Positions 43,242-59,064 of a stretch of DNA of 64,000 bases are shown one piece after another (position 1 is the first letter of the stretch; every line of letters starts with the position of its first letter). Origin of the DNA: Gloeobacter morelensis MG652769 (GTDB lineage Bacteria; Cyanobacteriota; Cyanobacteriia; Gloeobacterales; Gloeobacteraceae). The notes under the pieces were generated by a model. It was not told where the DNA came from. It saw nothing but the letters and a program-made list of their open reading frames with translations, and searched no databases. The translations under genes and the position numbers were made by a program. Where the stretch lies: contig NZ_CP063845.1 in the NCBI RefSeq assembly GCF_021018745.1, forward strand, positions 806,001 to 870,000. Direction: 5' to 3'.

Positions 43242-43381
43242 GGCCAATTCTCAACGCGGCGCTGGTCGCTGCACACGCCCAGCTTACCTCCCTAGGGAAA
43301 ATGGCTGTGTTAGATTCTTGGCTAGATCCGTGGCAGTACCGGCATTCTTCTACAGGTTCCAGCCCGGGCAGGAGTTGCGCT

Positions 43382-45472
43382 GTGCAACTGTTTGAAACTT
43401 CCTACAAGGCTTACCGCTGTTCGCGCAACATGCCGCTCAGTTGCGACGTGCTCGTACAGACCGCCCAGCAGATCCCCGGGGCCAAATTTTGCCAGGAATG
43501 CGGCTTTCCGACGTTGCTGGCCGAAAAATCCGAGATCCGCGGCACCCGCGGTACCTACCGGATCGTCAAGTTCGTGGGTACCCGCGGGATGGGCAGGCTC
43601 TACCAGGCGATCCAGGCGGGGGATAATCAGCCGTGCGTCGTCAAGGAGTACCTGCTTCCCAGCCGCTGCTTCAACAAAGCCGAGACCCGCCAGCGCAAGG
43701 ACGCCTTCAAGCGGGTGGCGGGTCTCCTGCCCGCCGACGGCAAAAACCAGGACTTTCGGCTGGTCAGCCCCTGGGAAGCGATCGCCGACGAGCAGGGCGA
43801 GCGGTGTTATCTGGTGACCAAAGGCGCGCTCGAAACGTCGCCCACCCTCGCGCGGCATCTGGCCGAAAGCGGCCCGATGAACGCGGCCCAGGTGCGCTCG
43901 GTGCTCAACCAGGTGCTCCAATCGCTGCAATTTCTGCACAGCCAGAAGTTCCGGTTGCCCTCGGGCCAGGTGCAGCCGGGGCTCGCCCACGGACATCTCA
44001 CCCTCGACAGTTTGCTCATCAGCCGGGGCGGGGCGCAGTTTTTTGTCTACGTCTGCGATCTGGCCCTCTGGGAGCAGTTGTTTGACCCGCCTCCGGCGGT
44101 CGCCGACGAACCGCTGCCCGAGCATGATCTGATCGCCCTCGGGTACGTGGCCTATTTTTTGCTGACCGGTCAACTGGTCAACCCGGCCACCGGCGGCTAC
44201 TTTGACCCGCGCGACCCGCAGCAGTGGCCGAGCGTGGAGCCACGTCTGCAGGAGTACCTGTACCGGCTGATGGGTCTCGATGTGCCCTTCGAGACGGCCG
44301 AGGCGGCGCGGGCGGCGTTGCTCAAATTGCCGGGAGAAGAGCAGTTCGAAGCGGTAAGCGCCCCGGTCGAGTACGACAAAAAGGACAAAGCCAACCTGAC
44401 CCTTTTTGCGCTGTTGGCGTTCGCCTTGCTCGCGATGATCGCTGGATTGTTGTTTATTTTTTGGCCCCAACTGGAGCGCTGGTTCCCGAAGCCGCCCCAG
44501 ATCGACACGCGCGTGGCGAGCTTTGCGGAAGTGAGCGGCGTGCCGGAGGGCGCATTTAGCTATGCCGCCGAGCGCGACGGCACCTGGAGCTATCTATTGC
44601 AGGGCAAACCCGCCGACGACCAGCGGCTTGTCGACCTGCTCACCGAGCCGCGCACCCGCGTCGAGATGCGCTTTGTGCCCGTCGTCTCTCCCAAAATCGA
44701 CACCGAGAGCGAAGCGGTGCGGCTGGTGCAGCTCATCCGCACCGACTTTGCGATCACCAGCCTGACCGAAGATCTCAGCGATGAACTGGAGAGCAAGCCC
44801 ATCGCCATCGATGGGCTGGTGGTCTACGTCGCCTTCAGCAAAAAACCGCGCAACCTGCCCAACGCCCTGGGGGGCAAAATCAGCCTCGAAAATCTCCAAA
44901 AGCTCTACACCGGCAAGGTCCGCAACTGGAAAGAGCTCGGCGGGCCGGATCTGCCGGTGCGGCTGTTTGCCCCCACCGAACCGGAGGCTGTGCGTATGTT
45001 CGAGCGGCTGGTACTGGGGAACGACCCCCAGCGCGTCGCCACCTTCCGCAGCCTGGCGACGGTATTGCCCACCAAGGAGACCCAGCGGCTGGTGCTGCCC
45101 GAATTTGACAACAACCGCTCGGGGATCATCGCCTTCAGCACCCTGGTCAAAGCCTTCGACCAGTGCTCGGGCTACCCTCTGGCCCTCGATCAGGGCAAAG
45201 GCGAAATCCAGCCGCTGGTGCAGACCGACCCGCGCTTTGACGGCCAGCCCATCCACCCCAACGTCAACCTGTGCGCCAAGGCCTTTCGTCTCGACGCCGG
45301 GGCGTTCACCCAGCGGCGCTACCCGCTCGGCTTTCCTCTGACTGTGGTGTATCCCCGCGACAACAGCCGTCCGACCTCCGGCCTCAAATTTGCCGAATTG
45401 CTGACGACCCGCCAGGGCCAGCAGTATCTTGAAAAACTGGGCGTCGTCCCACTGCCGCTGTCCAATAAGTAA
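43382..45472 (+). CDS. Membrane pseudokinase fused to PstS-like extracytoplasmic domain
   Basis: A ~696-residue protein. An N-terminal four-Cys zinc ribbon (YRCSRN..SC..KFCQECGFP) is followed by a Ser/Thr kinase-like domain (~55-320): Gly loop VGTRGMGRLY and the beta-3 Lys in CVVKEYLLP. However, HRD reads HGH in LAHGHLTLDSLLI and DFG reads DLA, so it should be inactive. One membrane helix follows (LTLFALLAFALLAMIAGLLFIF). The ~330-residue C-terminal domain is PstS-like (ISLENLQKLYTGKVRNWKELGG; IIAFSTLVKAF). The GTG at 43382 with AGGAG seven bases upstream fits best; an ATG at 43301 would add 27 residues. Confidence 0.8.
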   Translation: MQLFETSYKAYRCSRNMPLSCDVLVQTAQQIPGAKFCQECGFPTLLAEKSEIRGTRGTYRIVKFVGTRGMGRLYQAIQAGDNQPCVVKEYLLPSRCFNKAETRQRKDAFKRVAGLLPADGKNQDFRLVSPWEAIADEQGERCYLVTKGALETSPTLARHLAESGPMNAAQVRSVLNQVLQSLQFLHSQKFRLPSGQVQPGLAHGHLTLDSLLISRGGAQFFVYVCDLALWEQLFDPPPAVADEPLPEHDLIALGYVAYFLLTGQLVNPATGGYFDPRDPQQWPSVEPRLQEYLYRLMGLDVPFETAEAARAALLKLPGEEQFEAVSAPVEYDKKDKANLTLFALLAFALLAMIAGLLFIFWPQLERWFPKPPQIDTRVASFAEVSGVPEGAFSYAAERDGTWSYLLQGKPADDQRLVDLLTEPRTRVEMRFVPVVSPKIDTESEAVRLVQLIRTDFAITSLTEDLSDELESKPIAIDGLVVYVAFSKKPRNLPNALGGKISLENLQKLYTGKVRNWKELGGPDLPVRLFAPTEPEAVRMFERLVLGNDPQRVATFRSLATVLPTKETQRLVLPEFDNNRSGIIAFSTLVKAFDQCSGYPLALDQGKGEIQPLVQTDPRFDGQPIHPNVNLCAKAFRLDAGAFTQRRYPLGFPLTVVYPRDNSRPTSGLKFAELLTTRQGQQYLEKLGVVPLPLSNK

Positions 45473-45483
45473 ACGGTACCGCC

Positions 45484-46122
45484 ATGGCCGCTCCCAAGTG
45501 CCCCAATCCGCAGTGCGAATACTTCAACCGGACACTGCCCAACACCGCCCAAGTCTGCCCGATGTGCGGCACACCCCTCGGGAACGTCGTGCGCAGCGGC
45601 GCCGCCCCGGTCGCCGCCGCTCCACCGCCGCCGCCCATCGTCTCGCCCTACCAGCAGTCGGCCCCGCCGCCGCTGCCGCCCGTCTACGCGCCGGTCGCTC
45701 CGCCGCCCGGGTACCCACAGCCCGCTCCCGCCGCCTACCCCCCGCCGCCGGTCGCCCCGGCCGCCGCGCCGCCTGTCTCCCAGGGGCGGCCGACGCTCAA
45801 GCTGGTGCACGCGCTCATCGGCCGCGAATTCGCGGCGCCGGGCGACGAAAGTTATATCGGCCGGCGCGGCGGCACGGTCAAACCGGCTCCCGAGATTGAT
45901 CTGACCGGCATCCCCAACGATCAGGTCATCTCGCGGCCCCACGCCTGTATCCTCTGGGACGCCGCCTACGCCACCTACACGATCACCGACAACAACAGCC
46001 GCAACGGCACCTTCGTCAACGGCCAACCGCTCACCCCGGGGGTTTCCTACCAGCTGGTGGACGGCGACACGCTCCAGTTGGGCCGGGAGAGCCTGGTGCA
46101 GTTCAAGGTGGCCATCGCCTGA
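45484..46122 (+). CDS. Zinc-ribbon/FHA-domain protein
   Basis: A 212-residue soluble protein. An N-terminal four-Cys ribbon (CPNPQCEYF ... CPMCGTPL) and a Pro/Ala-rich linker (~35-102) precede an FHA domain at ~103-212 (ESYIGRRGG, VISRPHACILWD, NNSRNGTFVNGQPL, LQLGRESLVQF), with Arg, Ser and Asn of the pThr pocket in place. It begins 11 bases after the pseudokinase stop, so the two are co-transcribed. The FHA likely binds a phosphothreonine on a partner, which could link an active kinase elsewhere to the injection system. Confidence 0.85.
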   Translation: MAAPKCPNPQCEYFNRTLPNTAQVCPMCGTPLGNVVRSGAAPVAAAPPPPPIVSPYQQSAPPPLPPVYAPVAPPPGYPQPAPAAYPPPPVAPAAAPPVSQGRPTLKLVHALIGREFAAPGDESYIGRRGGTVKPAPEIDLTGIPNDQVISRPHACILWDAAYATYTITDNNSRNGTFVNGQPLTPGVSYQLVDGDTLQLGRESLVQFKVAIA

Positions 46123-46220
46123 AATATATTCCCTAGTTTGGAACCGAGGGCTCCGACTTTTGGCCACTGGCAGGCCGGGCCAGGAGCTTCCTACACTGAT
46201 CCCAGCCTCGGGTCCGACCT

Positions 46221-46496
46221 ATGGATTTCAACTCCAAACCGCCCCAGCTCGAAACCCGCTTTCACGCTTCACCCGTTCAGCAACCCGCCGCTCAGGCGCA
46301 TTCGGCCGCAGGCACGGCCGCGGGCGCCGCTTTGCAGACGCGCAACAAGCAAAAACTGGCGCTGATGCTGCAGGCGGGCCAAGTGCTCAAAAGCCACCTG
46401 GTGATGCGCCGCTTGAGCGACCGGGTTTACGAACTGATGCGCGACGAGCTGGATCGGCACCGCGAGCGCGGACGCGATTACGGGGGGCGCTTTTGA
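46221..46496 (+). CDS. Small CIS-associated protein with C-terminal helical module
   Basis: A 91-residue protein directly upstream of the tail-tube gene, with which it overlaps by one base (TGATG). The first half is Ala/Gln-rich. The C-terminal ~30 residues form a charged helix ending RERGRDYGGRF, preceded by LSDRVYELMRDELD. That end closely matches the end of the 3239-residue protein encoded at 47029 (LAQEIYGLLRQRLE ... RERSGHHYLGRMPW). Position and shared module suggest a structural or assembly factor of the particle; the family is not one I can name. Confidence 0.78.
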   Translation: MDFNSKPPQLETRFHASPVQQPAAQAHSAAGTAAGAALQTRNKQKLALMLQAGQVLKSHLVMRRLSDRVYELMRDELDRHRERGRDYGGRF

Positions 46497-47026
46497 TGGC
46501 ACAAAACGGCAATGTCGTCCACGAACTGAACTATGTTCTGCCCAACCGCTTCTACGTCGAGATTGACAGCGAGTTGACCGCGTCGTTCATGCAGTGCAGC
46601 GGCATCGGCTTCACCATGAAGAAAAACTCCTACGCCGAGGGCGGGGTCAACGAGCAGGAGCGCATCTACCTGGGGCCGGTGACCTACAGCGATGTCACCC
46701 TCCAGCGCGGCATCACCGACAGTCTCACTTTTTGGGAGTGGGCCTACGGGTCGCTCGATCCGGCCACCCCGACCAAACGGCGCAATGTCAACATCGTATT
46801 GTTCAATCAGGCGGGCGAAACCATGCAGTGCTGGACCCTGATCGGTGCGGTGGTGACCGGCTTCAAAGGTCCGCAGTTGATGGCGAACCTGCCTGCGCAG
46901 AACGCGACGGCGGCCATCGAGCAGGTGATTGTCTCCTACGAGGGTCTGCGCATCCAGAGAAGCGGCGGCGGCGGGGCGATGATGAACCTGACCCGCGACG
47001 CGAGCGGCTACTTCGGCAGTAATTAG
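46496..47026 (+). CDS. CIS tail tube protein (phage T4 gp19-like)
   Basis: A 176-residue tube protomer: an N-terminal strand (NRFYVEIDSELTASFMQCSGIGFTM, in parts), KRRNVNIVLFNQAGETMQCWTL and the C-terminal strand IEQVIVSYEGLRI are hallmarks of the gp19/Pvc1-Pvc5 tube family. Such proteins stack as hexameric rings to form the inner tube. The ATG overlaps the stop of the small upstream gene. Two bases separate its stop from the start of the giant gene. A 5' extension of the frame to 46160 is antisense-style filler and not adopted. Confidence 0.9.
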   Translation: MAQNGNVVHELNYVLPNRFYVEIDSELTASFMQCSGIGFTMKKNSYAEGGVNEQERIYLGPVTYSDVTLQRGITDSLTFWEWAYGSLDPATPTKRRNVNIVLFNQAGETMQCWTLIGAVVTGFKGPQLMANLPAQNATAAIEQVIVSYEGLRIQRSGGGGAMMNLTRDASGYFGSN

Positions 47027-47028
47027 CG

Positions 47029-50000
47029 ATGGAATCGCAACCGTCGCTCTCCGATTTTTCGGCTCCGCTGGGCATGTCCGCTCCTGCGGGCGCGCCTGAG
47101 ACCCTTGCCCCCGAACTGGTCAGCCCGCCCGAGCCGCTCGGACAGGACATCCAGCTGCCGCAAGCGCTGATTGCCCCGGTAGGGGCAGCGCCGATGGCCG
47201 CGGCGGATCTGACGGCGCTGATCCCGGAGGGCATCCCCGGTTACGAACGGCCGCAAAACCCCTTCGAGGGCTGGCCCTTCCAGGCTCCCGAACCGCCGGA
47301 ATTGCCGCCGCTCGCGGTTCCCGAGCCCCTCGCCCCCGGCCAGATGAGCCTGGAGGAGGCGATGGCGGCGGATGCAAGAAATCGAAACGACGACCGCCGC
47401 AGTGAAGATCCCCGCCGCGAGCAGCAGGAAGAGCGCACCATCGAATTGCCCCGCTACCAGCCGGGGGAGTTGGGCACGTTGGGCGACGAGTTCGAGCCGC
47501 CGACGGCCCTCCAGTTCGCACCAGAACCCGACGACGACGACGACGACGACGCCCTCCCCGCCTCGGCGGATCTGCCGCCTCCCGCCGAGGCGTTGGCGGA
47601 CTTTACCAGCGCGGACGATCCCGAGGTGCTCCCGGCGGAGTACTTGAGCCAGGTGCCCGAGTCGCCCGTGGCCGAGGCGCCGGGAGATACTTTGGAAAAT
47701 CCTCTCGATCCCGCCGAACCGTCTCAGCCACCGGAAGCGCTCTCCCCGCCGGAGGAAGCTCTGCAGGCCTACAACGCCCTGTCGCCTTTGCCGCCCACCG
47801 AGCAGCTTTTTCCTTCGTTGGCCACCCAGGAAGCGCTGGTTCCCCCCGGGTCGCCGCTGCAGGCCGTCCCCACAGCCCCCGAGCTGTCCGGCGCAGGGGG
47901 CGCGGAGGGTTCGGGGCCGTCATTGGGCACGGGCGATCCCCGCTCGCTGTTTTCGCTGGAAGAAAGCTTTGCCGCCGAACCGGGCTCGGCACCTTTGATC
48001 GCGGGCAACTTGAACCCACTTTTCCCGGACGATGCTTCGGCGATGGTGCCGCCTGGCGGCCCGGGGCAAGAGGCGCTCCCTGCCGTCGAGCCGCCCGATA
48101 CCTCCGCCCAGGCATTTCTTTCGCTGGAGGATCGATTCGTCCAGGAAGGTTTTTCTCTGCCCGATCAGCTGGCTGCCCCCGAGCTCCTCCCAGAGTTGCT
48201 ATCACCGGAGCTGCTCGAAGCCGAGTTGCCCCCGCCTCTCGATGGGTTGCCCACAGAAGCGGTGGATCTCGCTGCGTCGCCGCCTACGGATAACGGTGAA
48301 CCGCTATCGGGCGAAGCAGAGAATTTATTCACCGCCGTGGACCCGGAAACTGCCGAACCGACGATGCAGCCGCCCATTCTGGAGGCAGCGGCGGACGGCA
48401 CAGCGAGCCCATTTGCCGGCTATCCCCCCGAGCCGCTCACGGAGGCGCATGGGTCGCCCGTGGGCGAAGGGCCGATACCTCCGGTCGATTTTTTCTCAGC
48501 GCCGGATGAAGGCAGTCTTCGATCCTCGGTGGCGGAGCCATCCGCCCAGGTAGATGAACTGGAAAGCATCGGGCAGCCGGGGATGATCCCCCAGCCGGAG
48601 CCGTTGGGCGCACAACCGCAGCTGCGCGAGCAGGCCGAGCCGACGGTTGAACCGCAGTTGACTGCTCAGCCCGAACCGCCAGCGGCGGAGCCGACTGACC
48701 TGCCACACACACCGCAAGCGGTCGAACCGCAGCTCATAGCACAGCCCGAGCCGCTTTCAGCCGATACCGTTACCCCGTCCGAGCGGCCCGAGGCGGAACC
48801 ATCGCTGCCTGCCGCTCCGGCGGAGATCCCCTTTCTAGAGCAAACTGAACCGTTCTACGCCAACGAAAGCGCACCGGAGCTGCCGCCCGCCGAGGGCAAC
48901 AGTCCGGTCGCGCAGGTGGAGGAAGTCTTCCCGGTGCCGCCGCTCATTTCCCAGGCGACGGACCTGGCGGCAGACTTCCCCTTGCCTGTCGAGCCGGTGA
49001 TGCTGACGCCGTCGGAGTTGCCGGGCGAGGTCACTGCAAGCGAACCGCTTCGCGCAACCGCATTGTCCGAGGGCGAAGCACAGCGGTACGTACCGTCGGA
49101 CGATGCAGGTGCATCCGAATTTTCCGTTGGGGCGCCAGAGTTTTCCGCACCATCGGAGAGCGAATCGTCCTTCGAGGCCCCTGGGATCGATACCCCGGTC
49201 GAGCCGTTGGCAGAGGTTGCGTTTCTGCCGACGCAGGATGAACTGGCGGACAACGAACCGGTCGAGTTCGTCGAGCCGCTGCCGCATCCTGAGCCTCGGG
49301 TGCAACCCGAGTACGGTATCGCCCAGGATCAGCCGCAGCAACCGACGGCGCCATTCGCCGACAGCCAGTCGGAAGTTTCCGGATCACCTCCAGCTCCCCA
49401 GGTCGAATCGCGTGGGGAATTGCCGGGCCTGCCGCCCCAGGAGCAAACTGCGCAGGTCGAGCCGCCGCAATCTGCTGACGGGATGGGATTGATCGACCAA
49501 CCCGAGGCTGGCTCACCGTCGCCTGTCGGCGATGAGGAATTGGTCCTCCCTTCCGAGGCGATGGCCGGCAGCTCGCTGCCGGAATCCGAGCCGTCAGCTT
49601 TTGAGGCCACTTCGCCACCCCCGAGCGAGGCGCAAATTTTCCAACTGGACCCGGCGATCCAGTCGCAACTTGTTGATGGAGCCCCGGGCGGCGAAGTGTA
49701 TGGTGCGTTGTTGCCGGAGTCAGAAATTGGCGAAGCCAGTTCAGCGATCAGCGACCGCCAAGCGGGGCCGCTCGCTGATCCGGCAGTGCCGCTCCGGGAA
49801 GAGCCGTCGGTCGAACCGGCCATTCACTCGTCGACTACCGAATCGCTCAGCACCGGGGATCTCAGGGAGACTCCCGAGCCGCCGTTTGTTGCGCTGGAGG
49901 AGCAATTCTCCCAGGAGGGATTGCCCGAGCCGGTCTTACTCGCCGCCGCAGAACCCTTTGCTTCGGTCGACACCCCAGTGTCGTCGTCGTTGTCGGATGG

Positions 50001-53000
50001 TGAGTTGCAGGCAGCGATTGGCGACGAGCCACTGCCAGCGGCGGCGTCCTACGAGGCGGCCGGGTTGGCGGCCCAACCGCTCCAGATGGACATGCCAACC
50101 CGCCTGGAATCTTCAGGCGAGCCGGTGCCGCCCGAAGGGTTCGTAGCCCAGGGCGATCCGTCGGTGTTGGAGTCCCTGGAGCCCGAGCTGTCTGCGAGCT
50201 TAGAGAACCGGACTCCTATTGGATCGGACGCAGTCGCCGTCCCGCAACTTTCGCTGCGCGAACAGCCCGCCGCCGAGCCGGATCCGGCGGTGCCTTTGGA
50301 ACTGCCGCTCGACGACGAGACCCCTGCAGGGCAGGTCGCGCAGGCACAAACATGGTTGGAGGAGCTGTCCGGCCGGACGCAACCGCTTTCGCCGCTGCAA
50401 CCGGTAGAGTTGTCTGGACAATCTGAGCCGCTCCTGCCCTTCGAAACGCAGGCACCGGGCGAAGCGCCCGAAGGGATCTTTCCACTCGAAACCGAAACAC
50501 TCGATGCGGCTGGTGGAAGCGATGGACCGGTTGCATCCCTGGAAGCGGTGGAATCGATTGGTGAGCCTGAGCCGCTCCCGGTGCTGGAAGCCGAAGCGAG
50601 CGAGCTGAGCGAACAACCGGATACGCTCCTATCGCCGGTCACAACCGAACTGACCGACGAACCGCCATCGGCCGGACCGCCGGCATCCCCAATGGGAATA
50701 CCAGGCGACGAACCGGAAATCTTCGCGCCGCAACCGGCGCAGACAGCCGCCGAGGTGCCCGAGGCGACTGTGCTGTCTGCATTGCAGACGCCTCCGGCAG
50801 TAGAAGCATGGAGCGGTCAACCGGAGGCGATGCTGCCGCTTGAAGGGCCAGATCCGCAGGTGAGCGAGTTTTTGGAGAGCGCCGGGGAGCCAGTCTTTAC
50901 CTCCCTGGAAGACCAGTTCTCCCGCGAGCAACCTCCCGACAGCGCGCCGGTCGCCGAGGTCACAGCCCCACCTGCACAACAGCTTAGCCAACCGCAAGCG
51001 CTGGGCGAGGTGACCGTCCAAACCCCAGAACTCCCCCCTGAGCCGCAAGCCGTTGCCGATGTTCCACAACAGCCTGGCCAGCCGCAAGCCGTTGCCGAAA
51101 GCGCGCAACTGCTCGAACCACAAGCCGTCGCAGAGCTTCCCGAACGGCTGGTTCCCTCCGAACCTGTTTTGCCGGCTGTTGCCGAAACGCCGCCCGTGCC
51201 CGCCCGGCTGCAGAGTGCCGAGGAAGGCGAGCCAGCCGTTGTTGAACCGCAACCGACGGCCCCGCCAGAACCCCTGGCAGAGACGGAACTCACCACTCCA
51301 TTGGAGCCGCTGAGTGAAACGGCATCCACCGACGATGCGGTATCGTTTGCTCAACTTCGGACTCCAGGAGAATTTCAGTCATCGGAAGCGCCCCTTCAGG
51401 CAATAGATGGCCCGATCGAGCCGGCTGCCGATGCACTGGAGCCGGAGTCCGAAGTGTTGGCCCTGGAGGAACGATTTGCCCAGGAGCAGGGGCAACCGAC
51501 CTCGACTATTTCTGCAGATGGCACAACAGCGGTGCAGGGAGCGCCCGATACCGAAGTCGGTTTCACAGAAGAGATCACCCGGACACTGCCGGAGGTGCTC
51601 GATCCTGTCGAATCGGTCATGCCGCCCGCCGAGCCGTTGCTTCCGGCCGAGGAGCCAGTGCCGGCCGAGGTTGGGGTCATCGGGCCTTCGGCGGAGCCGG
51701 CAGCCCAGCCGGAGCCGCAGGCCGTCGAGCCTGAAGTACTGATTTCATCGGGCTTGCCGGGTGAAATACTCACATCCGCAGAAGAAACGGTTGCTCCGTC
51801 TGAGGCGTCGGCTGCAGCCGGACTGGAGACGCAGCCGGTTGCCGTACCCACCCCGGAACTGGCCACGCCGGTACTGGACGTTTCTGAGGGCGAATTTTTC
51901 TCAGAACCGCCCTTTCAGGGAGAGCAGGCGGAGTTGCTTCCTCAACCTGAGCCGCTCCCGCAATCAACCCCTGAGGCGTCTGCTACCCAGGAGGCATCGA
52001 TTCCCCTGGAAGAGCCGTTTGTCGGCGAGGAGCTTCCCAGGCCGCAGCCGCAAGTTTTGCCCGACGTAGCCTCTGCGGCCACTCCTGCGGGGCTTCTCGA
52101 TCCCGTCGAAAGTGAGACGGAACTGGCGGCCCAACCGGAGACGCCGCAGGCGGCAGAACTATTCGTCTCGGACGAAGTGCCGGACGCATCGTCGAGCCCC
52201 GAGCTGTCTGCGGCCTTGACTGCGCAAGCCATGCCGGGTGGATCAGCAGAGGCCATCCGACCGGAACCGCCGGTAACGCTTGAGGAAGCGTCTGCGGCGG
52301 TCGAGGAGCTGGGAGCCGAAGTACCAGGCGAAGGTCTAGAAACCCCCGAACTGACCTTCGCCGCGTTGGAGGATCAGTTTTCCCAGGAGAGGGGACTCGA
52401 CTCGGGGGTGTTCACGGCGGAACCGCCTGTGGCTTCGGACGACCCATCGAGCAACGCCGAGTTGCCGCTGGAGGCGCTCCTCCGGAGCGAGTTGCCCGCC
52501 GAATTCCCAGTACAGCTTCAAAGCGCGGACGATTTACCGGAATCGGTCGTCCCAGCCGAGACGGCGATCGAGCAAGCCACTGCCGCGCAGACGGCCGAAG
52601 CAGCGGTGGAGCTGTTCGAGCCACCCCTGCAAGAAGATCCGGCGCTCTTTGCAGCACTGCACTTAGAAGCCGAGGCGCAGGAGTTGCCGCTCTCGCCTCT
52701 CTCAGCCTTCACAGAGCTGGAGGAGCGCTTTGCACCGGAGCCAACGGCCGAACTTGCAGCTGTCGCACCGGAGCTTGCGGCGGCTGCAGAACCGACATCC
52801 GACGACGAAATAGTGGTGGCAGCGGTTGTGGCGGCACAACCGCTGGAGATCCCCGGAGGAGAGCCGGAGGCTGGCTTGCCGCTCCAACCGGCGGAGTTGT
52901 CCGGCGAACCCGAATCGCTGCCGTCCCTGGAACTCGAAGCGGTGGAGCCGAGCGGTGAGCCGGAGACGGTCGAATCGATCGGAGATGGGGATCTCGATCC

Positions 53001-56000
53001 GGTCTTGCCGCCACTCGCAGCGGTGGCAGAAGGCGGCGAAGCCGGGATCATGCCGCCGCTGGAACTGGCGGTTGCAGTCGAGCCATTCGAGCCGGACACA
53101 CCGTCACCATCGCTTGACCCGCAGGCGAGCGAGTTTTTGGAGAGCGCCGGGGAGCCAGTCTTTACCTCCCTGGAAGACCAGTTCTCCCGCGAGCAACCTC
53201 CCGACAGCGCGCCGGTCGCCGAGGTCACAGCCCCACCTGCACAACAGCTTAGCCAACCGCAAGCGCTGGGCGAGGTGACCGTCCAAACCCCAGAACTCCC
53301 CCCTGAGCCGCAAGCCGTTGCCGATGTTCCACAACAGCCTGGCCAGCCGCAAGCCGTTGCCGAAAGCGCGCAACTGCTCGAACCACAAGCCGTCGCAGAG
53401 CTTCCCGAACGGCTGGTTCCCTCCGAACCTGTTTTGCCGGCTATTGCCGAAACGCCGCCCGTGCCCGCCCGGCTGCAGAGTGCCGAGGAAGGCGAGCCAG
53501 CCGTTGTTGAACCCCCGAGACCTGGGCAAGTCGATAGTGCCCACACAGACGCGATTGTCCCACAAATTGTCGAGCCGTCCGGCGAGTTGCCACAGCCGCC
53601 GATGGCCTTGCGCTCCGAACCGTTTGCAGAGGTGCTCTCGGATGTACCTTCTGTGCTCGATGTGCAAGGTGAGCCGCGGACGATGGAGCCGCCGCCGGTT
53701 GAGGCGCAGCCGCCAGAAGCGTTGGAGCTGTTGGAGCAGCCGCAAGCGCTGGGCGAGGGAGGTCTTGCCGATGGGTTGGAATTGCCTGTCGATGAATCGC
53801 CGGAGCGGCTTGACCAGCCGCAAGCGCTGAGTGAGCAGACGCCGCTGGAGCAGCCGGAGCGGCTTGGGGAGTTGGAGTTGCTGGAGCAGCCGCAACCACT
53901 GAGCGAGGAGCGGCTTGGGCAGTTGGAGCTGCTGGAGCAGCCGGAGCCGCTCGCTCAAAGTGCTGGTGAGTCGGGGTTGCTCCTGTCGGCGCAAGCGTTG
54001 GGCGAGCCGGACCTGCTCGCTGTGGCGCAGCCGCTTGGGGAGTTGGAGCTGCTGGAGCAGCCGGAGCCGCTTGGCGAAGCGCAACCGATGGCCCCGCAAG
54101 AACCGCTCGGGGAGAGCGGCTCGATTGCACCGGAGTTGCTGATTCCCCAGGACGCGCCTGTCCGGGGTGCCTTCGAAGAAAATCTGCTGTCGCTGGAGGA
54201 GGGCTTTGCCGAGCGGAGCGCTTTCCCAGCGGCGACAGAAACTGCAGCCACCGAAGCGGTTGCCCTTGAACCCGGCGACATCGCAGCGCCTTCAACCGGG
54301 GATTTGCCGCCGTCGGTTGCAAGGAGTGTTGAGCCTTCGTTGCCCGTCTTTCGGCCAACTCCTGAATCGTCCGTAGAATCGCCCCCGGCAGAACTGCCTG
54401 CAGACAGCATTACCGGCAAACCCACCGACCCCCTTCAGCCGACCGCCCCCGAGGCGGCATACCCCGAGCTGCTGTTGCCGGAGCGCGCCGATGGGCAGGC
54501 GGAACTGGCGGATTTGCCTCCTGCACCCACCGAGGTGTTCTCCATCCCGGAGGCCGTACCCCTCGAAGAGCCGTTGGCTACGCCAGAGCCGCCGGTTGCG
54601 GAACTGCCGGTGCAGATCGAGGATGCGACCGAACCAGCCGGATTTGCTGGCGAACCGCCTGAAATCCCACCGCGACCGGAGGAGCTGCAAGACGCCGAAG
54701 CGCTGCCCATCGCCGAGTCGGAGCCGGTCGCGGCGGATTTTGCCGAAGGGGAGGAAACCGAGTCTGCCGATGGGCCTCTCGCCGCAGGGGCAGACGCGAC
54801 CGTCGAGATCGGCGAACTTGCAGAGCTGGTGGACGGCTCGCCTGAACCGCTGGGGGATGCGTTCGCCCTCGGTGTATTGCCAGGGCTGCAGAGCTGGCCC
54901 CTGGGTCTGCTCGACCCGCTGGGGGGCACCGATCATCTCGGTGCGGGCAGCTCCGCAGACCTGTTGCTCCCGAGCCTCGTCCAGGATCTGACGGTTCTGA
55001 GATCGCTCGTCGAAGCCGAGGACGATTTAGCGGCCACCCTCCCGGAAGGACCGGAGCTGCCGACGTTGGCGGCCATCGAACCCGACTTGACGCCGGTAGA
55101 TGAGGTGCGGGCCATCGAGCCGGACCTACCGCCGCTGAGCGAACGGGAGATCCGGCCCGACCGGAGCGAAGACCGCAGCACCCCCGATCTGACGACGCTC
55201 GAAGCGCTGCCTGTCGATGGCGAAGCAGCCGACGACCAGCCGGAATCACCCCTGGGTGTTGCCCGGGATCTATCGGTGCTGCGTTCGTTGAGCGAAGCTG
55301 CCCTGCCCCTGGAGGCGGACGGGATAGTGTCGGCGTCGCCGGCATTTGCGCTGCCGGATGAGCCAGGCGAAACCACCGGGATCGATCCGACCCGCGCGGC
55401 AATCGACGATACCCAGGAGATCCCTGATGCGGACGGCGTGTTCGATCCGGCGCCGGAGGATGGTTCTGTCGCCGCTGAAGGACCTCTGGGTGTTGCCGAG
55501 GATCTGACAGTGCTGCGTCCGCTCGCCGGGGACGGTTTCTCACCGACAGTTGCCCAGGATCTGGGTGTTCTCGGTCTACTGGGGGTCGCGGCGGGCGTTT
55601 TCGCAGCAGCCGGGAGCGAGGCGATCGACCCGGTGGAGTACGGACCGCTTCCATACGCCCTGGCCGAGCAGGATCCGCTCGACGAGGCAGGCGGTGAACT
55701 GGAAGCGCTGCTGGCGCCTCTGGATGCGACCGTTCCCGAACCATTCCCCCCGCAGTTGGCGGCGGACTGGCCTGCAACCTCAGATGCGGATACGGTGGCC
55801 TCCCGGCCGCTCGGGATGGACGTGCAGCCGCTCGGGGTGTCGGAGGTTCCGGCCCTCGGACTGGAGGCGGGCGTTCCCCTGGTGTCCGTGGCCGACCTGC
55901 AGGACTTCGATGCGGATCTCCTGGAAGCAGATCTCGAAGCACCGACGTTGCCGACCGCTTCCGAGCGCACCCTGGGGCAGGGGCCGCTGCTCTTTGCCGC

Positions 56001-56748
56001 CCAGCTGTTGGCGGATCAACAGCCGGAGGAAGACGCGGAAGCGGAGCCGGAAGTCCCCTCAGACAATGCCGCTTTGCAAAGCGATTTTGCCCAGCAGGAG
56101 CCGGACGGGTTCTCCGGCGCCGGTGAGGACGAGATGGAGGTCGAACCGCTCGTCCTGCAGGAATACCTGCTGCAGCTGGAGGCCCGCAAAAACGCCGAGG
56201 AAGAGGACGAAGAAGAGGAAGCGGACGACGGCGACTCAGATCTGCCGACCGTGGCGGGCGAAGCGGCGGCACTCAGCGGCGCGGCCTTTGCTCCGCTGCT
56301 GTTTGCAGGTTCCGGTGCGCTCAGCGACGCCCTGGGCGGAGTGGACCACCAGATTCCCGACAACTTGTCAGACATCGAGGAATTGCTCACCGTCTCAGCC
56401 ACCGATATTGGCCTGGGCACCACCCTTCCCGCGGACACCGGCAGCAGTACCAGTACCGGTGGGGGCGGCGGCGGTGGAGGAGCGCAGGAGGCCGCCTCGA
56501 CCTATAGCGGCTATATGGGCGATTCGATGGAGCAGGTGTTGCTGAGCGGACAGCTTCCCGCCCATGTCCCCCACCCCCCACCCACGGAGGCGGCAGCCCA
56601 GGGGAACCTGGAGGAAGCGGAGGAGGCCGACGTCGAAAATGCGGATCTCGAAATGCTGGCCCAGGAAATCTACGGCCTGTTGCGCCAGCGCCTCGAAGTC
56701 GAGCGCGAGCGCTCGGGTCACCACTACCTGGGCCGTATGCCCTGGTGA
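47029..56748 (+). CDS. Giant acidic Pro/Glu/Ala-rich protein (3239 residues) within the CIS cluster
   Basis: A single uninterrupted frame of 9.7 kb, two bases after the tail-tube gene. The product is dominated by Glu, Pro, Ala, Leu, Ser and Gln, with very few Lys and no Cys noticed, an Asp7 run near residue 167, and no clear membrane or enzyme domain; it should be largely disordered. Nine spaced copies of (S/A)LE(E/D)xF occur between residues ~309 and 2388, four copies of DLxVL near 2653-2850, and an acidic coil near 3055-3075. The last 35 residues form the module shared with the protein at 46221. A 387-base internal repeat is described separately. Where CIS loci usually carry a tiny gene, this one carries a giant: scaffold, length ruler or surface tether are guesses. 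Confidence 0.85.
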   Translation: MESQPSLSDFSAPLGMSAPAGAPETLAPELVSPPEPLGQDIQLPQALIAPVGAAPMAAADLTALIPEGIPGYERPQNPFEGWPFQAPEPPELPPLAVPEPLAPGQMSLEEAMAADARNRNDDRRSEDPRREQQEERTIELPRYQPGELGTLGDEFEPPTALQFAPEPDDDDDDDALPASADLPPPAEALADFTSADDPEVLPAEYLSQVPESPVAEAPGDTLENPLDPAEPSQPPEALSPPEEALQAYNALSPLPPTEQLFPSLATQEALVPPGSPLQAVPTAPELSGAGGAEGSGPSLGTGDPRSLFSLEESFAAEPGSAPLIAGNLNPLFPDDASAMVPPGGPGQEALPAVEPPDTSAQAFLSLEDRFVQEGFSLPDQLAAPELLPELLSPELLEAELPPPLDGLPTEAVDLAASPPTDNGEPLSGEAENLFTAVDPETAEPTMQPPILEAAADGTASPFAGYPPEPLTEAHGSPVGEGPIPPVDFFSAPDEGSLRSSVAEPSAQVDELESIGQPGMIPQPEPLGAQPQLREQAEPTVEPQLTAQPEPPAAEPTDLPHTPQAVEPQLIAQPEPLSADTVTPSERPEAEPSLPAAPAEIPFLEQTEPFYANESAPELPPAEGNSPVAQVEEVFPVPPLISQATDLAADFPLPVEPVMLTPSELPGEVTASEPLRATALSEGEAQRYVPSDDAGASEFSVGAPEFSAPSESESSFEAPGIDTPVEPLAEVAFLPTQDELADNEPVEFVEPLPHPEPRVQPEYGIAQDQPQQPTAPFADSQSEVSGSPPAPQVESRGELPGLPPQEQTAQVEPPQSADGMGLIDQPEAGSPSPVGDEELVLPSEAMAGSSLPESEPSAFEATSPPPSEAQIFQLDPAIQSQLVDGAPGGEVYGALLPESEIGEASSAISDRQAGPLADPAVPLREEPSVEPAIHSSTTESLSTGDLRETPEPPFVALEEQFSQEGLPEPVLLAAAEPFASVDTPVSSSLSDGELQAAIGDEPLPAAASYEAAGLAAQPLQMDMPTRLESSGEPVPPEGFVAQGDPSVLESLEPELSASLENRTPIGSDAVAVPQLSLREQPAAEPDPAVPLELPLDDETPAGQVAQAQTWLEELSGRTQPLSPLQPVELSGQSEPLLPFETQAPGEAPEGIFPLETETLDAAGGSDGPVASLEAVESIGEPEPLPVLEAEASELSEQPDTLLSPVTTELTDEPPSAGPPASPMGIPGDEPEIFAPQPAQTAAEVPEATVLSALQTPPAVEAWSGQPEAMLPLEGPDPQVSEFLESAGEPVFTSLEDQFSREQPPDSAPVAEVTAPPAQQLSQPQALGEVTVQTPELPPEPQAVADVPQQPGQPQAVAESAQLLEPQAVAELPERLVPSEPVLPAVAETPPVPARLQSAEEGEPAVVEPQPTAPPEPLAETELTTPLEPLSETASTDDAVSFAQLRTPGEFQSSEAPLQAIDGPIEPAADALEPESEVLALEERFAQEQGQPTSTISADGTTAVQGAPDTEVGFTEEITRTLPEVLDPVESVMPPAEPLLPAEEPVPAEVGVIGPSAEPAAQPEPQAVEPEVLISSGLPGEILTSAEETVAPSEASAAAGLETQPVAVPTPELATPVLDVSEGEFFSEPPFQGEQAELLPQPEPLPQSTPEASATQEASIPLEEPFVGEELPRPQPQVLPDVASAATPAGLLDPVESETELAAQPETPQAAELFVSDEVPDASSSPELSAALTAQAMPGGSAEAIRPEPPVTLEEASAAVEELGAEVPGEGLETPELTFAALEDQFSQERGLDSGVFTAEPPVASDDPSSNAELPLEALLRSELPAEFPVQLQSADDLPESVVPAETAIEQATAAQTAEAAVELFEPPLQEDPALFAALHLEAEAQELPLSPLSAFTELEERFAPEPTAELAAVAPELAAAAEPTSDDEIVVAAVVAAQPLEIPGGEPEAGLPLQPAELSGEPESLPSLELEAVEPSGEPETVESIGDGDLDPVLPPLAAVAEGGEAGIMPPLELAVAVEPFEPDTPSPSLDPQASEFLESAGEPVFTSLEDQFSREQPPDSAPVAEVTAPPAQQLSQPQALGEVTVQTPELPPEPQAVADVPQQPGQPQAVAESAQLLEPQAVAELPERLVPSEPVLPAIAETPPVPARLQSAEEGEPAVVEPPRPGQVDSAHTDAIVPQIVEPSGELPQPPMALRSEPFAEVLSDVPSVLDVQGEPRTMEPPPVEAQPPEALELLEQPQALGEGGLADGLELPVDESPERLDQPQALSEQTPLEQPERLGELELLEQPQPLSEERLGQLELLEQPEPLAQSAGESGLLLSAQALGEPDLLAVAQPLGELELLEQPEPLGEAQPMAPQEPLGESGSIAPELLIPQDAPVRGAFEENLLSLEEGFAERSAFPAATETAATEAVALEPGDIAAPSTGDLPPSVARSVEPSLPVFRPTPESSVESPPAELPADSITGKPTDPLQPTAPEAAYPELLLPERADGQAELADLPPAPTEVFSIPEAVPLEEPLATPEPPVAELPVQIEDATEPAGFAGEPPEIPPRPEELQDAEALPIAESEPVAADFAEGEETESADGPLAAGADATVEIGELAELVDGSPEPLGDAFALGVLPGLQSWPLGLLDPLGGTDHLGAGSSADLLLPSLVQDLTVLRSLVEAEDDLAATLPEGPELPTLAAIEPDLTPVDEVRAIEPDLPPLSEREIRPDRSEDRSTPDLTTLEALPVDGEAADDQPESPLGVARDLSVLRSLSEAALPLEADGIVSASPAFALPDEPGETTGIDPTRAAIDDTQEIPDADGVFDPAPEDGSVAAEGPLGVAEDLTVLRPLAGDGFSPTVAQDLGVLGLLGVAAGVFAAAGSEAIDPVEYGPLPYALAEQDPLDEAGGELEALLAPLDATVPEPFPPQLAADWPATSDADTVASRPLGMDVQPLGVSEVPALGLEAGVPLVSVADLQDFDADLLEADLEAPTLPTASERTLGQGPLLFAAQLLADQQPEEDAEAEPEVPSDNAALQSDFAQQEPDGFSGAGEDEMEVEPLVLQEYLLQLEARKNAEEEDEEEEADDGDSDLPTVAGEAAALSGAAFAPLLFAGSGALSDALGGVDHQIPDNLSDIEELLTVSATDIGLGTTLPADTGSSTSTGGGGGGGGAQEAASTYSGYMGDSMEQVLLSGQLPAHVPHPPPTEAAAQGNLEEAEEADVENADLEMLAQEIYGLLRQRLEVERERSGHHYLGRMPW
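50862..51248 (+). repeat. Internal 387-base direct repeat, copy 1
   Basis: Matches 53127-53513 (copy 2) with one difference that I could find (GTT versus ATT near 51178/53443). The offset is 2265 bases, a multiple of three, so both copies are read in the same frame and encode the same ~129 residues but one. Confidence 0.92.
53127..53513 (+). repeat. Internal 387-base direct repeat, copy 2
   Basis: In-frame near-identical copy of 50862-51248 inside the giant gene. The sequence diverges abruptly on both sides, as expected of a recent segmental duplication or recombination between paralogous repeats. Confidence 0.92.
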
Positions 56749-56781: not shown

Positions 56782-57348
56782 ATGACTCTCGTAAAGGCCC
56801 AACTCGTCCCCCAGGAAGGCGGCGGCTCGACAATCACGTTCTTGTACAACCCGAGTGCCATCTCGTTTACGCGCACGGTGGAGTGGAAAGAAAATAAAGG
56901 TTCGGTCGGCAATAACGACACCCTGCCCAGCACCGACTACAAAGGTGTCAAACCTTACCAGGTGACGATCGAGAACATGCTCATCGACACCTACGAGTCG
57001 CGCTCCTCCTGCCAGTCCTATATCGATGCGCTCAAGGACGCCGTCTCCCCCAAACAGGTCTCCGACACGACCGCCGGTGCGGACGGAGCCGCCGACGGCG
57101 GCCTGCTCAACCGCAAACGGCCGCTGGTCTACATGTTCACGATGGGCTCCAACATCCAGCTGCGCTGCGTGGTCACCACGCTGACCTACAATTACACGAT
57201 GTTTCTGCCCAACGGCGATCCGGTGCGGGCGATGATCACCCTCAAGCTCCAGGAGGTCGACGACATCGCCGCGGGCTCCCAGGGGGACAACGCCGGGGGG
57301 GCGAACCGGCAGGCGGATTCGCGCAGCGCCCGCACCCCGACCGGTTAG
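56782..57348 (+). CDS. CIS tube-initiator/tail assembly protein (Pvc7/gp53-like N-domain)
   Basis: A 188-residue protein: ITFLYNPSAISFTRTVEWKEN, YQVTIENMLIDTYESRSSCQ, RPLVYMFTMGSNIQLRCVVTTLTYNYTMF and RAMITLKLQEVDD form the conserved N-terminal domain of CIS tube-initiator proteins. Homologs commonly end in a LysM domain; here only a ~25-residue Gly/Asn/Arg-rich tail follows, so LysM is missing. GGAGA precedes the ATG by seven bases. It joins tube to baseplate in characterised systems. Confidence 0.85.
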   Translation: MTLVKAQLVPQEGGGSTITFLYNPSAISFTRTVEWKENKGSVGNNDTLPSTDYKGVKPYQVTIENMLIDTYESRSSCQSYIDALKDAVSPKQVSDTTAGADGAADGGLLNRKRPLVYMFTMGSNIQLRCVVTTLTYNYTMFLPNGDPVRAMITLKLQEVDDIAAGSQGDNAGGANRQADSRSARTPTG

Positions 57349-57390: not shown

Positions 57391-59064
57391 ATGCCAAAGT
57401 ACAACTCGAAGCCGAATATCACCATCGACGGGATGAGCGGTGAAGATACCGATCAGCTCGCCATCAGCACCCAGCAGATCTGTGTGGAGGAGAGCCTGCA
57501 CCTGCCCGACGCCTTCACGCTCATTCTGCACAACCCCTTCACCCCGGGCCGGATGCGCGACATCCACCACTGGATCAACCACCCGGCCCTCAAAGTCGGT
57601 GCGAAGATCACCTTTGGTTTTCGCGCCGCCACCACGACCGCGCCGGAATTCGTAGCGGACAATGCCCTGCCGAAGCTGTTGGTGGGCGAGATTACCGGCA
57701 TCGAGACCCACTTCACCGAAGATCCCTCCGCGCCAATGGTTCTGCGCGGCTACGACATGTCCCACCGGCTGCACAAGGGCCGCTTCAACCGTTCGTTCGT
57801 CAACATGACCGACAGCGATATCGTCCGCAAAATCGTGGCGGAGGTGGGCCTGCAGGCCGGCGGCGAAATCGAAGAAAGCGGCATCCCCCACGACTATGTC
57901 TTTCAAGAAAACCAGACCAACATGGCGTTTTTGCGCGAACGGGCGGCGCGCATCGGGTTCGAGTTTTTTGTGCAGGACGAACAGGTACACTTCCACCGGC
58001 CCCGGGAGCTTGAGCCGGTGCAGCTGCGCTGGGGTGTGCGGCTGAATGCCTTTCGCGTGCGCATGAGCACCGCCGAGCAGGTCAGCTCCGTCGAGGTGCG
58101 CAGCTGGGATTACACCGAGAAAAAGACGATCGTCGCCACCGCCCAGAGCGAACAGGTGGTCACCAGGACCGGCTACGAACCGGGCAGTTCTTCCAATTCC
58201 CAGTTTGACCTCCAACCAAAACTGGTCGTGGTCGATCATCCCGTCTTCAACGCCCAGGAGGCCGACACGATGGCCCAGGCGATCTGCGACGAGATGGGGG
58301 GCGAGTATATCTTTGCGGATGCCCGCGCCGAGGGCGAGCCGAAAGTGCGTCCGGGGCGGCTGGTCAAACTCGTCGGCCTAGGCGAAAAGCTGACGGGCGA
58401 TTATTACGTCACCGACGCGCGCCACCTCTACCACGACCTGGTCTACACCACCGAATTCAGCGTGCGCGGCACCCGCGGCGGCAATCTCATGACTGGGTTG
58501 TCACCCCAGCCCAAGCTCAAACCCGGCCAGACCAACCTGGTGGGCATCGTCACCAACAACAAAGACCCCGAGGGCATGGGGCGGGTGAAAGTAAAATTTC
58601 CGACCCTCACCGAGGAGCACGAGAGCAACTGGGCACGCGTCGTCGGCCCCGGCGCCGGACCCAAGCACGGCATCTACTGGATGCCGGAGGTCAACGACGA
58701 AGTGCTCGTCTGCTTCGAGCACGGCGACATCCACCGGCCCTACGTGGTGGGTGGCGTCTGGAACGGTAAGGATGACACCCCTGAGACGGTGGACGATTCG
58801 CTCACCCCGGTAAAGCTGCGCACGATGAAGACCCGTGTCGGCCACTATCTGCGCTTTGCCGACGAGGACACGCCGCCGGACAAAAAAGGGATCTACATCC
58901 GCACCGCCGATAATTATCAAATTCAGATCAACGAGACCGACCAGTTCATGGAGCTGCGCACGCCGGGGGGCTGTTTTATCAAACTCGACGATGCCACGGG
59001 CTCGATCACGATCGAAGCGCCGATGACGGTGACCATCAAGGCGGGGCAGGTGTTCATCAACTAA
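57391..59064 (+). CDS. CIS spike protein (VgrG/gpD-gp5-like, Pvc8 type)
   Basis: A 557-residue spike. The gpD-like region covers residues ~1-350 (ITFGFRAATTT, LLVGEITGIETHF, VLRGYDMSHRLHKGRF, FLRERAARIGFEFF). An OB-fold gp5 domain follows (~375-470: LVGIVTNNKDPEGMGRVKVKF, RVVGPGAGPKHGIYWMPEVNDEVLV), then a short beta-prism tail (IQINETDQFMELRTPGG, ITIEAPMTVTIKAG). It trimerises at the baseplate centre and would carry the PAAR tip. It is the last plus-strand CIS gene; no effector domain is fused. Confidence 0.93.
   Translation: MPKYNSKPNITIDGMSGEDTDQLAISTQQICVEESLHLPDAFTLILHNPFTPGRMRDIHHWINHPALKVGAKITFGFRAATTTAPEFVADNALPKLLVGEITGIETHFTEDPSAPMVLRGYDMSHRLHKGRFNRSFVNMTDSDIVRKIVAEVGLQAGGEIEESGIPHDYVFQENQTNMAFLRERAARIGFEFFVQDEQVHFHRPRELEPVQLRWGVRLNAFRVRMSTAEQVSSVEVRSWDYTEKKTIVATAQSEQVVTRTGYEPGSSSNSQFDLQPKLVVVDHPVFNAQEADTMAQAICDEMGGEYIFADARAEGEPKVRPGRLVKLVGLGEKLTGDYYVTDARHLYHDLVYTTEFSVRGTRGGNLMTGLSPQPKLKPGQTNLVGIVTNNKDPEGMGRVKVKFPTLTEEHESNWARVVGPGAGPKHGIYWMPEVNDEVLVCFEHGDIHRPYVVGGVWNGKDDTPETVDDSLTPVKLRTMKTRVGHYLRFADEDTPPDKKGIYIRTADNYQIQINETDQFMELRTPGGCFIKLDDATGSITIEAPMTVTIKAGQVFIN

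Follow-up and report, generated by a model that had tools for sequence, protein, structure and literature searches.

A giant disordered protein between the tube and tube-initiator genes of a Gloeobacter CIS: a probable plug-anchored tape measure

What is the role of an unbroken 9.7-kb frame lying between two structural genes of a contractile injection system (CIS), a phage-tail-like nanosyringe, where characterized loci carry short genes? The question is raised by a stretch of 64,000 nucleotides from Gloeobacter morelensis MG652769 (contig NZ_CP063845.1, positions 806,001 to 870,000), which we call the window, and whose own positions are used throughout. Its forward strand carries, in order, a gp19-type tube gene in a Cis5-like position (46496..47026; PF06841 match, 3e-34), the giant frame (47029..56748), a Cis7-like tube initiator (56782..57348; PF19266 CIS_tube, 6.7e-17, with PDB matches 8kea, 9rce, 7aeb and 7b5h) and a Cis8-like hub and spike of the VgrG/gpD type (57391..59064; gpD/OB-fold match); a LysM domain was looked for in the initiator and none was found. 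The frame encodes 3239 residues, opens with an ATG two bases 3′ of the tube stop and ends 33 bases before the initiator gene, and the chance expectation for a frame open over 3239 codons at its own base composition is ~4e-35. A preliminary description, made from the letters alone, had already noted this frame between two CIS genes, correctly, and had placed the start of the tube gene at 46160; the tube gene in fact starts at ~46496 and is preceded by a separate 91-residue gene (46221..46496, + strand). We propose that the giant is probably the tape measure of its CIS, a disordered chain anchored at the plug by a C-terminus resembling that of a spike plug.

The composition is as extreme as first described, with Pro, Glu and Ala at 15.4%, 13.9% and 13.8%, two Lys among 3239 residues, no Cys and a net charge of -564. 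Near-absent Lys combined with such a charge is found only in copies from the window's genus, Lys reaching ~5% elsewhere. Many short motifs recur, for example LE[ED]xF with 11 copies against 0.5 expected from shuffled sequences, and a 398-bp segment (~130 residues) is duplicated internally in near-identical copies at 50851..51248 and 53116..53513 (+ strand, 99% identity in DNA). A single hydrophobic, transmembrane-like stretch, LGVLGLLGVAAGVFAAAGS, occupies residues 2845-2863 (55561..55617, + strand); one of 76 other homologues tested comes near it in hydrophobicity. A Pfam search of the protein gave no domain match. Its longest stretch free of Pro, 52 residues, is located at the C-end, where AlphaFold2 predicts a helix (residues 3194-3228; 56608..56712, + strand) with pLDDT 83-97 over the last 35-40 residues and below ~60 elsewhere. 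The helix is part of a plug-like module conserved in 79 loci (consensus LExLAREIYxxLRQRLEIERERxGxxYSGRLPW), which has no match in Pfam, NCBIfam, PHROG or PDB, matches none of the solved plugs in PDB by sequence, and was searched for in viral contigs and found in none.

This C-terminal module was previously taken to be the only obvious domain. A conserved module is also present at the other end, where profile and alignment delimit residues 13-85 (47065..47283, + strand; PLG...PLGQ..LPQ..IAPVG...F), which we propose as the distal docking end. Most non-Nostocales members begin with PLGxxxPL..PLGQxxLxPKFLxPLG, and a profile of this N-end built without the window's genus finds residues 20-72 of another protein of that genus (from G003; 5e-7) and, weakly, residues 33-85 of the window's protein (0.06), which is the same place. 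Nostocales giants have a conserved N-end of their own kind, and between it and the other N-ends no homology is detectable beyond 'PLG'.

When the genomes of 84,980 species were scanned with the C-terminal module alone, 79 loci were found, all of them cyanobacterial. Among 59 relatives, 17 have the initiator, 16 the module and 15 both, and in these 15 the module terminates a long open frame just 5′ of the initiator wherever the contig permits. The gene order tube, giant, initiator, hub holds in every locus with both flanks present, the initiator match lying 13-206 nt downstream and the tube match usually ~26 nt upstream. Length varies between strains, as had been thought worth checking: in the window's genus the four copies encode 3239, 3277 (the family maximum), 2736 and 2500 residues, while the 61 ORFs uncut by a contig end encode 313-2568, with most Nostocales giants at ~900-1500. 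In the three shortest complete-looking ORFs (313-402 residues) the matched flank is absent or the tube lies far upstream, and these may be truncated or broken frames.

Conservation is concentrated at the ends of these proteins. Across 31 Nostocales members, pairs of sequences have a mean identity of 0.55 at the N-end and 0.87 at the C-end, while in the middle it is 0.03-0.2 with gaps in about half or more of the alignment. Within the window's genus, the middle of the giant has a dN/dS of 0.3-0.6 versus 0.02-0.1 in tube, initiator and spike, and segments of the giant have been duplicated and rearranged between strains. Conserved ends flanking a length-variable middle are the design that would be expected of a ruler. 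Assembly collapse alone is unlikely to lie behind the shorter gene of one strain (G002), as the differences involve several segments and the three genomes with an unbroken locus are not alike either. Many Nostocales copies contain tandem repeats whose period is lineage-specific (13/26, 28, 35-36, 38 or 47 residues), and we reject a single period common to all giants, as a register with the rings of the tube would have predicted. One 2568-residue homologue, from Nostoc sp. CMAA1605 (L114:2405-10108), has a PG_binding_1 match mid-protein (7e-7).

The 91-residue gene upstream of the tube gene has at its end (RRLSDRVYELMRDELDRHRERG) a module of the giant's kind, paralogous to the giant's C-end, and small gene and giant are found again as a pair in most cyanobacterial loci; perhaps both products contribute to one hetero-plug. 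In a Leptolyngbyaceae MAG (L054:10067-10771, - strand) a second initiator-like protein of 234 residues is fused to a small-type C-terminal module, and this fusion ties the module to initiator and hub.

Some of the orthologues also carry a sequence signature of phage tape measures. A profile of the phage-type motif SDTVPAMLTPGEFVIN..DAQKNLPLLHHINTGG finds 57 family sequences, nearly all from Nostocales (shuffled sequences score 7 bits or less), and in the Nostocales-type orthologues the motif lies 200-290 residues before the C-end as GYATGGxV...APSDTVPAMLTPGEFVIN..DAQKNLPLLHHINTGG. By tblastn, 748 of 50,697 phage records have a match to it, the best being Nodularia phages (53% identity, 9e-15). 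Annotation reads tape measure in all 40 of the 40 best of these 748 matches and, among 60 records taken evenly down the ranking, in 54, with five 'endolysin' and one other; one of the five is a known tape measure, that of phage TM4, which has a peptidoglycan hydrolase motif and appears among the references of PMC13277306. PHROG 25241, a tail length tape measure, weakly matches the same stretch (0.0044). The profile has no match in the window's copy, in its genus or in Leptolyngbya-type copies, and the tape-measure identity would carry over to the window's protein through the position and C-terminal module that it has in common with these orthologues, not through the motif.

The resemblance to phage tape measures goes further. 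Their gene lies between those of tube and initiator or hub and is the longest ORF of its cluster, as the giant is, and variable length and a C-terminal helix are common to both. In cyanophage A-1(L), whose initiator (8kea) is the solved initiator nearest to that of the window, the C-end of the tape measure gp13 forms a tripod of three helices lodged in the hub (PMC10966104); for the giant, a C-terminal helix is predicted with high confidence. Phage tape measures have a coiled-coil body, the giant has Pro-rich disorder in its stead, and its gene stands beside that of a CIS-type initiator. This disorder rules out a coiled-coil body for the window's protein, and, having looked for a helical body and found none, we do not class it among the classical tape measures. 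Afp14, the antifeeding prophage tape measure, has the same function as that proposed for the giant, but its gene occupies a different position in the cluster. FliK/YscP of the flagellum and type III secretion are largely disordered molecular rulers, as the giant is proposed to be, and act during secretion, but they are not the core of a contractile tube and share no homology with the giant.

Also close is the spike plug Cis6/Alg6/Afp6, whose gene likewise lies between the second tube gene and the initiator gene and whose product has a C-terminal helix (PMC8894136, PMC8894135). An Anabaena-like locus, with an initiator 75% identical to All3321, carries at the giant's place a gene for ~61 residues (MSIVPLEIRELVIRASIND...ADIIAACVEQVLAILKEQSER) that fits the published description of the Cis6/Alg6 plug as N-terminal strand, loop and C-terminal helix (PMC8894135), in line with the earlier statement that characterized loci have short genes here. 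The giant is ~50 times longer and has no N-terminal strand of the LEIRELVI type, and because of strand and size we do not file it as a Cis6 either; it may instead work like both tape measure and plug, without every defining feature of either.

By analogy with Cis6/Alg6 and the phage tape measures, we hypothesize that the C-terminal helix, probably as a trimer, is seated in the spike/hub cavity below the tube initiator and has a part in nucleating assembly. The long disordered chain would then extend up the tube lumen, and growth of the tube would stop once the conserved N-terminus had docked at its growing tip or at the cap, such that chain length would set tube length and duplication of internal segments would alter both gene and tube. 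With 0.15-0.31 nm for each residue, particles of ~0.5-1 µm are predicted from the window's protein. Both the particle association suggested in the preliminary description and, among the four functions it listed, that of length determinant are supported by the conserved synteny, the plug-like helix and the motif in orthologues. There are also points against length control from within the lumen. The lumen of other tubes is negatively charged, and if this one is likewise, the strong negative charge of the giant would be repelled; the charges of giant and neighbouring tube show no clear co-variation (rho -0.22, p 0.11). Furthermore, the short-plug CIS of Anabaena and AlgoCIS are also of defined length, and therefore something else can set length.

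Other roles for a long chain at this position are conceivable. The protein might derive from a tape measure and fill the tube, only to be ejected on firing as cargo carrier or effector with no part in length, as tape-measure-related CIS effectors are known from Streptomyces: Sle1 of S. lividans (PMC13277306) and Tme of S. davawensis, which is large, ~70% disordered, tape-measure-like and equipped with effector domains (PMC11126660). Tme, the largest ORF and upstream of the baseplate genes, qualifies the earlier impression that no CIS component like the giant had been described, although its effector domains have no counterpart here. The repeated short motifs of the giant could bind cargo, and the window's copy has one hydrophobic stretch. 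Tme and Sle1, however, have a DUF4157 domain or partner, transmembrane helices, coiled coils or a nuclease, and of these the giant has nothing but that stretch; it has no DUF4157 signature (HExxH is absent), no enzyme domain and no Pfam match, and its middle is unconserved, unlike an effector. We consider this reading unlikely.

Still less probable, in our judgement, is that the C-terminal plug alone matters and that the remainder is a functionless expansion, tolerated and free to drift. The middle, with its dN/dS of 0.3-0.6, duplications and low complexity, is what such drift would produce, but its dN/dS is still below 1, lengths of ~900-1500 residues have been maintained over most Nostocales, the N-end is conserved and the phage motif has been kept in 57 sequences. 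As for the external scaffold or tether of the preliminary description, joining particles to the membrane or to one another, an acidic disordered chain with one hydrophobic stretch would suit it; the gene, however, occupies the place of the plug, flanked by tube and initiator genes, and the Leptolyngbyaceae MAG has the small-type module joined to an initiator domain. We regard such a role as very improbable, and found no support for a surface tether or an effector recruiter. A tape measure anchored at the plug remains our preferred reading, and with a candidate ruler at the phage tape-measure position and a phage motif in its relatives, what sets the length of a CIS becomes testable.

Similar long proteins are encoded next to these genes outside cyanobacteria as well. 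Reading the neighbours of LysM-type initiators on plasmids, we found long low-complexity ORFs with a similar C-terminal helix adjoining the initiator (or tube and initiator) in Streptomyces (1020 and 1381 residues), Paraburkholderia (878), Paenibacillus (532) and a Nostoc plasmid (524). When 2383 ORFs were ranked with a module profile built from cyanobacteria only, these C-ends took the first ranks or came close to them (Paenibacillus 1e-5, Paraburkholderia 7e-4, Nostoc plasmid 1e-3, Streptomyces 0.015 and 0.17). In the archaeon Haloferax larsenii a frame of 2301 residues, its start unsure, precedes the initiator (L199:14-6919), and its end is module-like by eye only; the gene table of PLSDB, itself incomplete, does not list this frame.

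Streptomyces and haloarchaeal CIS have been described as having no tape measure (PMC10066040, PMC12237407, PMC11566945): in S. coelicolor all particles have one and the same length despite the absence of a tape-measure gene (PMC12237407), and in the haloarchaeal system plug and tape-measure genes were not found (PMC11566945). On the present reading, a long ORF would be expected in S. coelicolor between the DUF6760 gene and cis1b. Particle lengths have also been published for Roseiflexus castenholzii (217 nm), C. chliarophilus (238 nm) and Deinococcus aquatilis (365 nm), the haloarchaeal value being that of Halogeometricum borinquense. Crude arithmetic with 268 nm for S. coelicolor and, for the haloarchaeal system, a contracted sheath of 220 nm (~480 nm extended, using the AlgoCIS ratio of 92.4 to 42.5 nm) yields ~0.2 nm per residue, a lead and not a test since protein and particle come from different species. 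We tentatively suggest, holding it somewhat less probable than its converse, that in clades whose CIS are said to be devoid of a tape measure, those of cyanobacteria, Streptomyces and haloarchaea among them, a disordered ruler has been overlooked, one derived from or merged with the plug and with constant ends and a middle of free length, at ~0.2 nm of tube per residue. If so, such a ruler would explain both the uniform Streptomyces length and the missing haloarchaeal genes, a coiled coil would not be required of a tape measure, and tube length could be read from one gene; Gloeobacter tubes would then measure ~0.6 µm, exceeding the measured CIS particles in the open-access literature searched.

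Core CIS parts are all present in the Gloeobacter genome but split: the cap and sheath genes map near C1:528-531 kb and that of baseplate J to C1:978 kb, tube, giant, initiator and spike lie in the window, and each family searched has one match. Gloeobacter has no thylakoids. Anabaena CIS are anchored to theirs (PMC8894136), an arrangement that for this reason is inapplicable here. Directly 5′ of the tube genes (43301-46122) the window encodes a protein weakly similar to kinase and periplasmic-binding-protein, followed by an FHA-domain protein, reminiscent of kinase/FHA control in type VI secretion. Similar large proteins occupy that place in two other cyanobacterial CIS loci (L049, L058), and an FHA gene is also present in a Treponema CIS.
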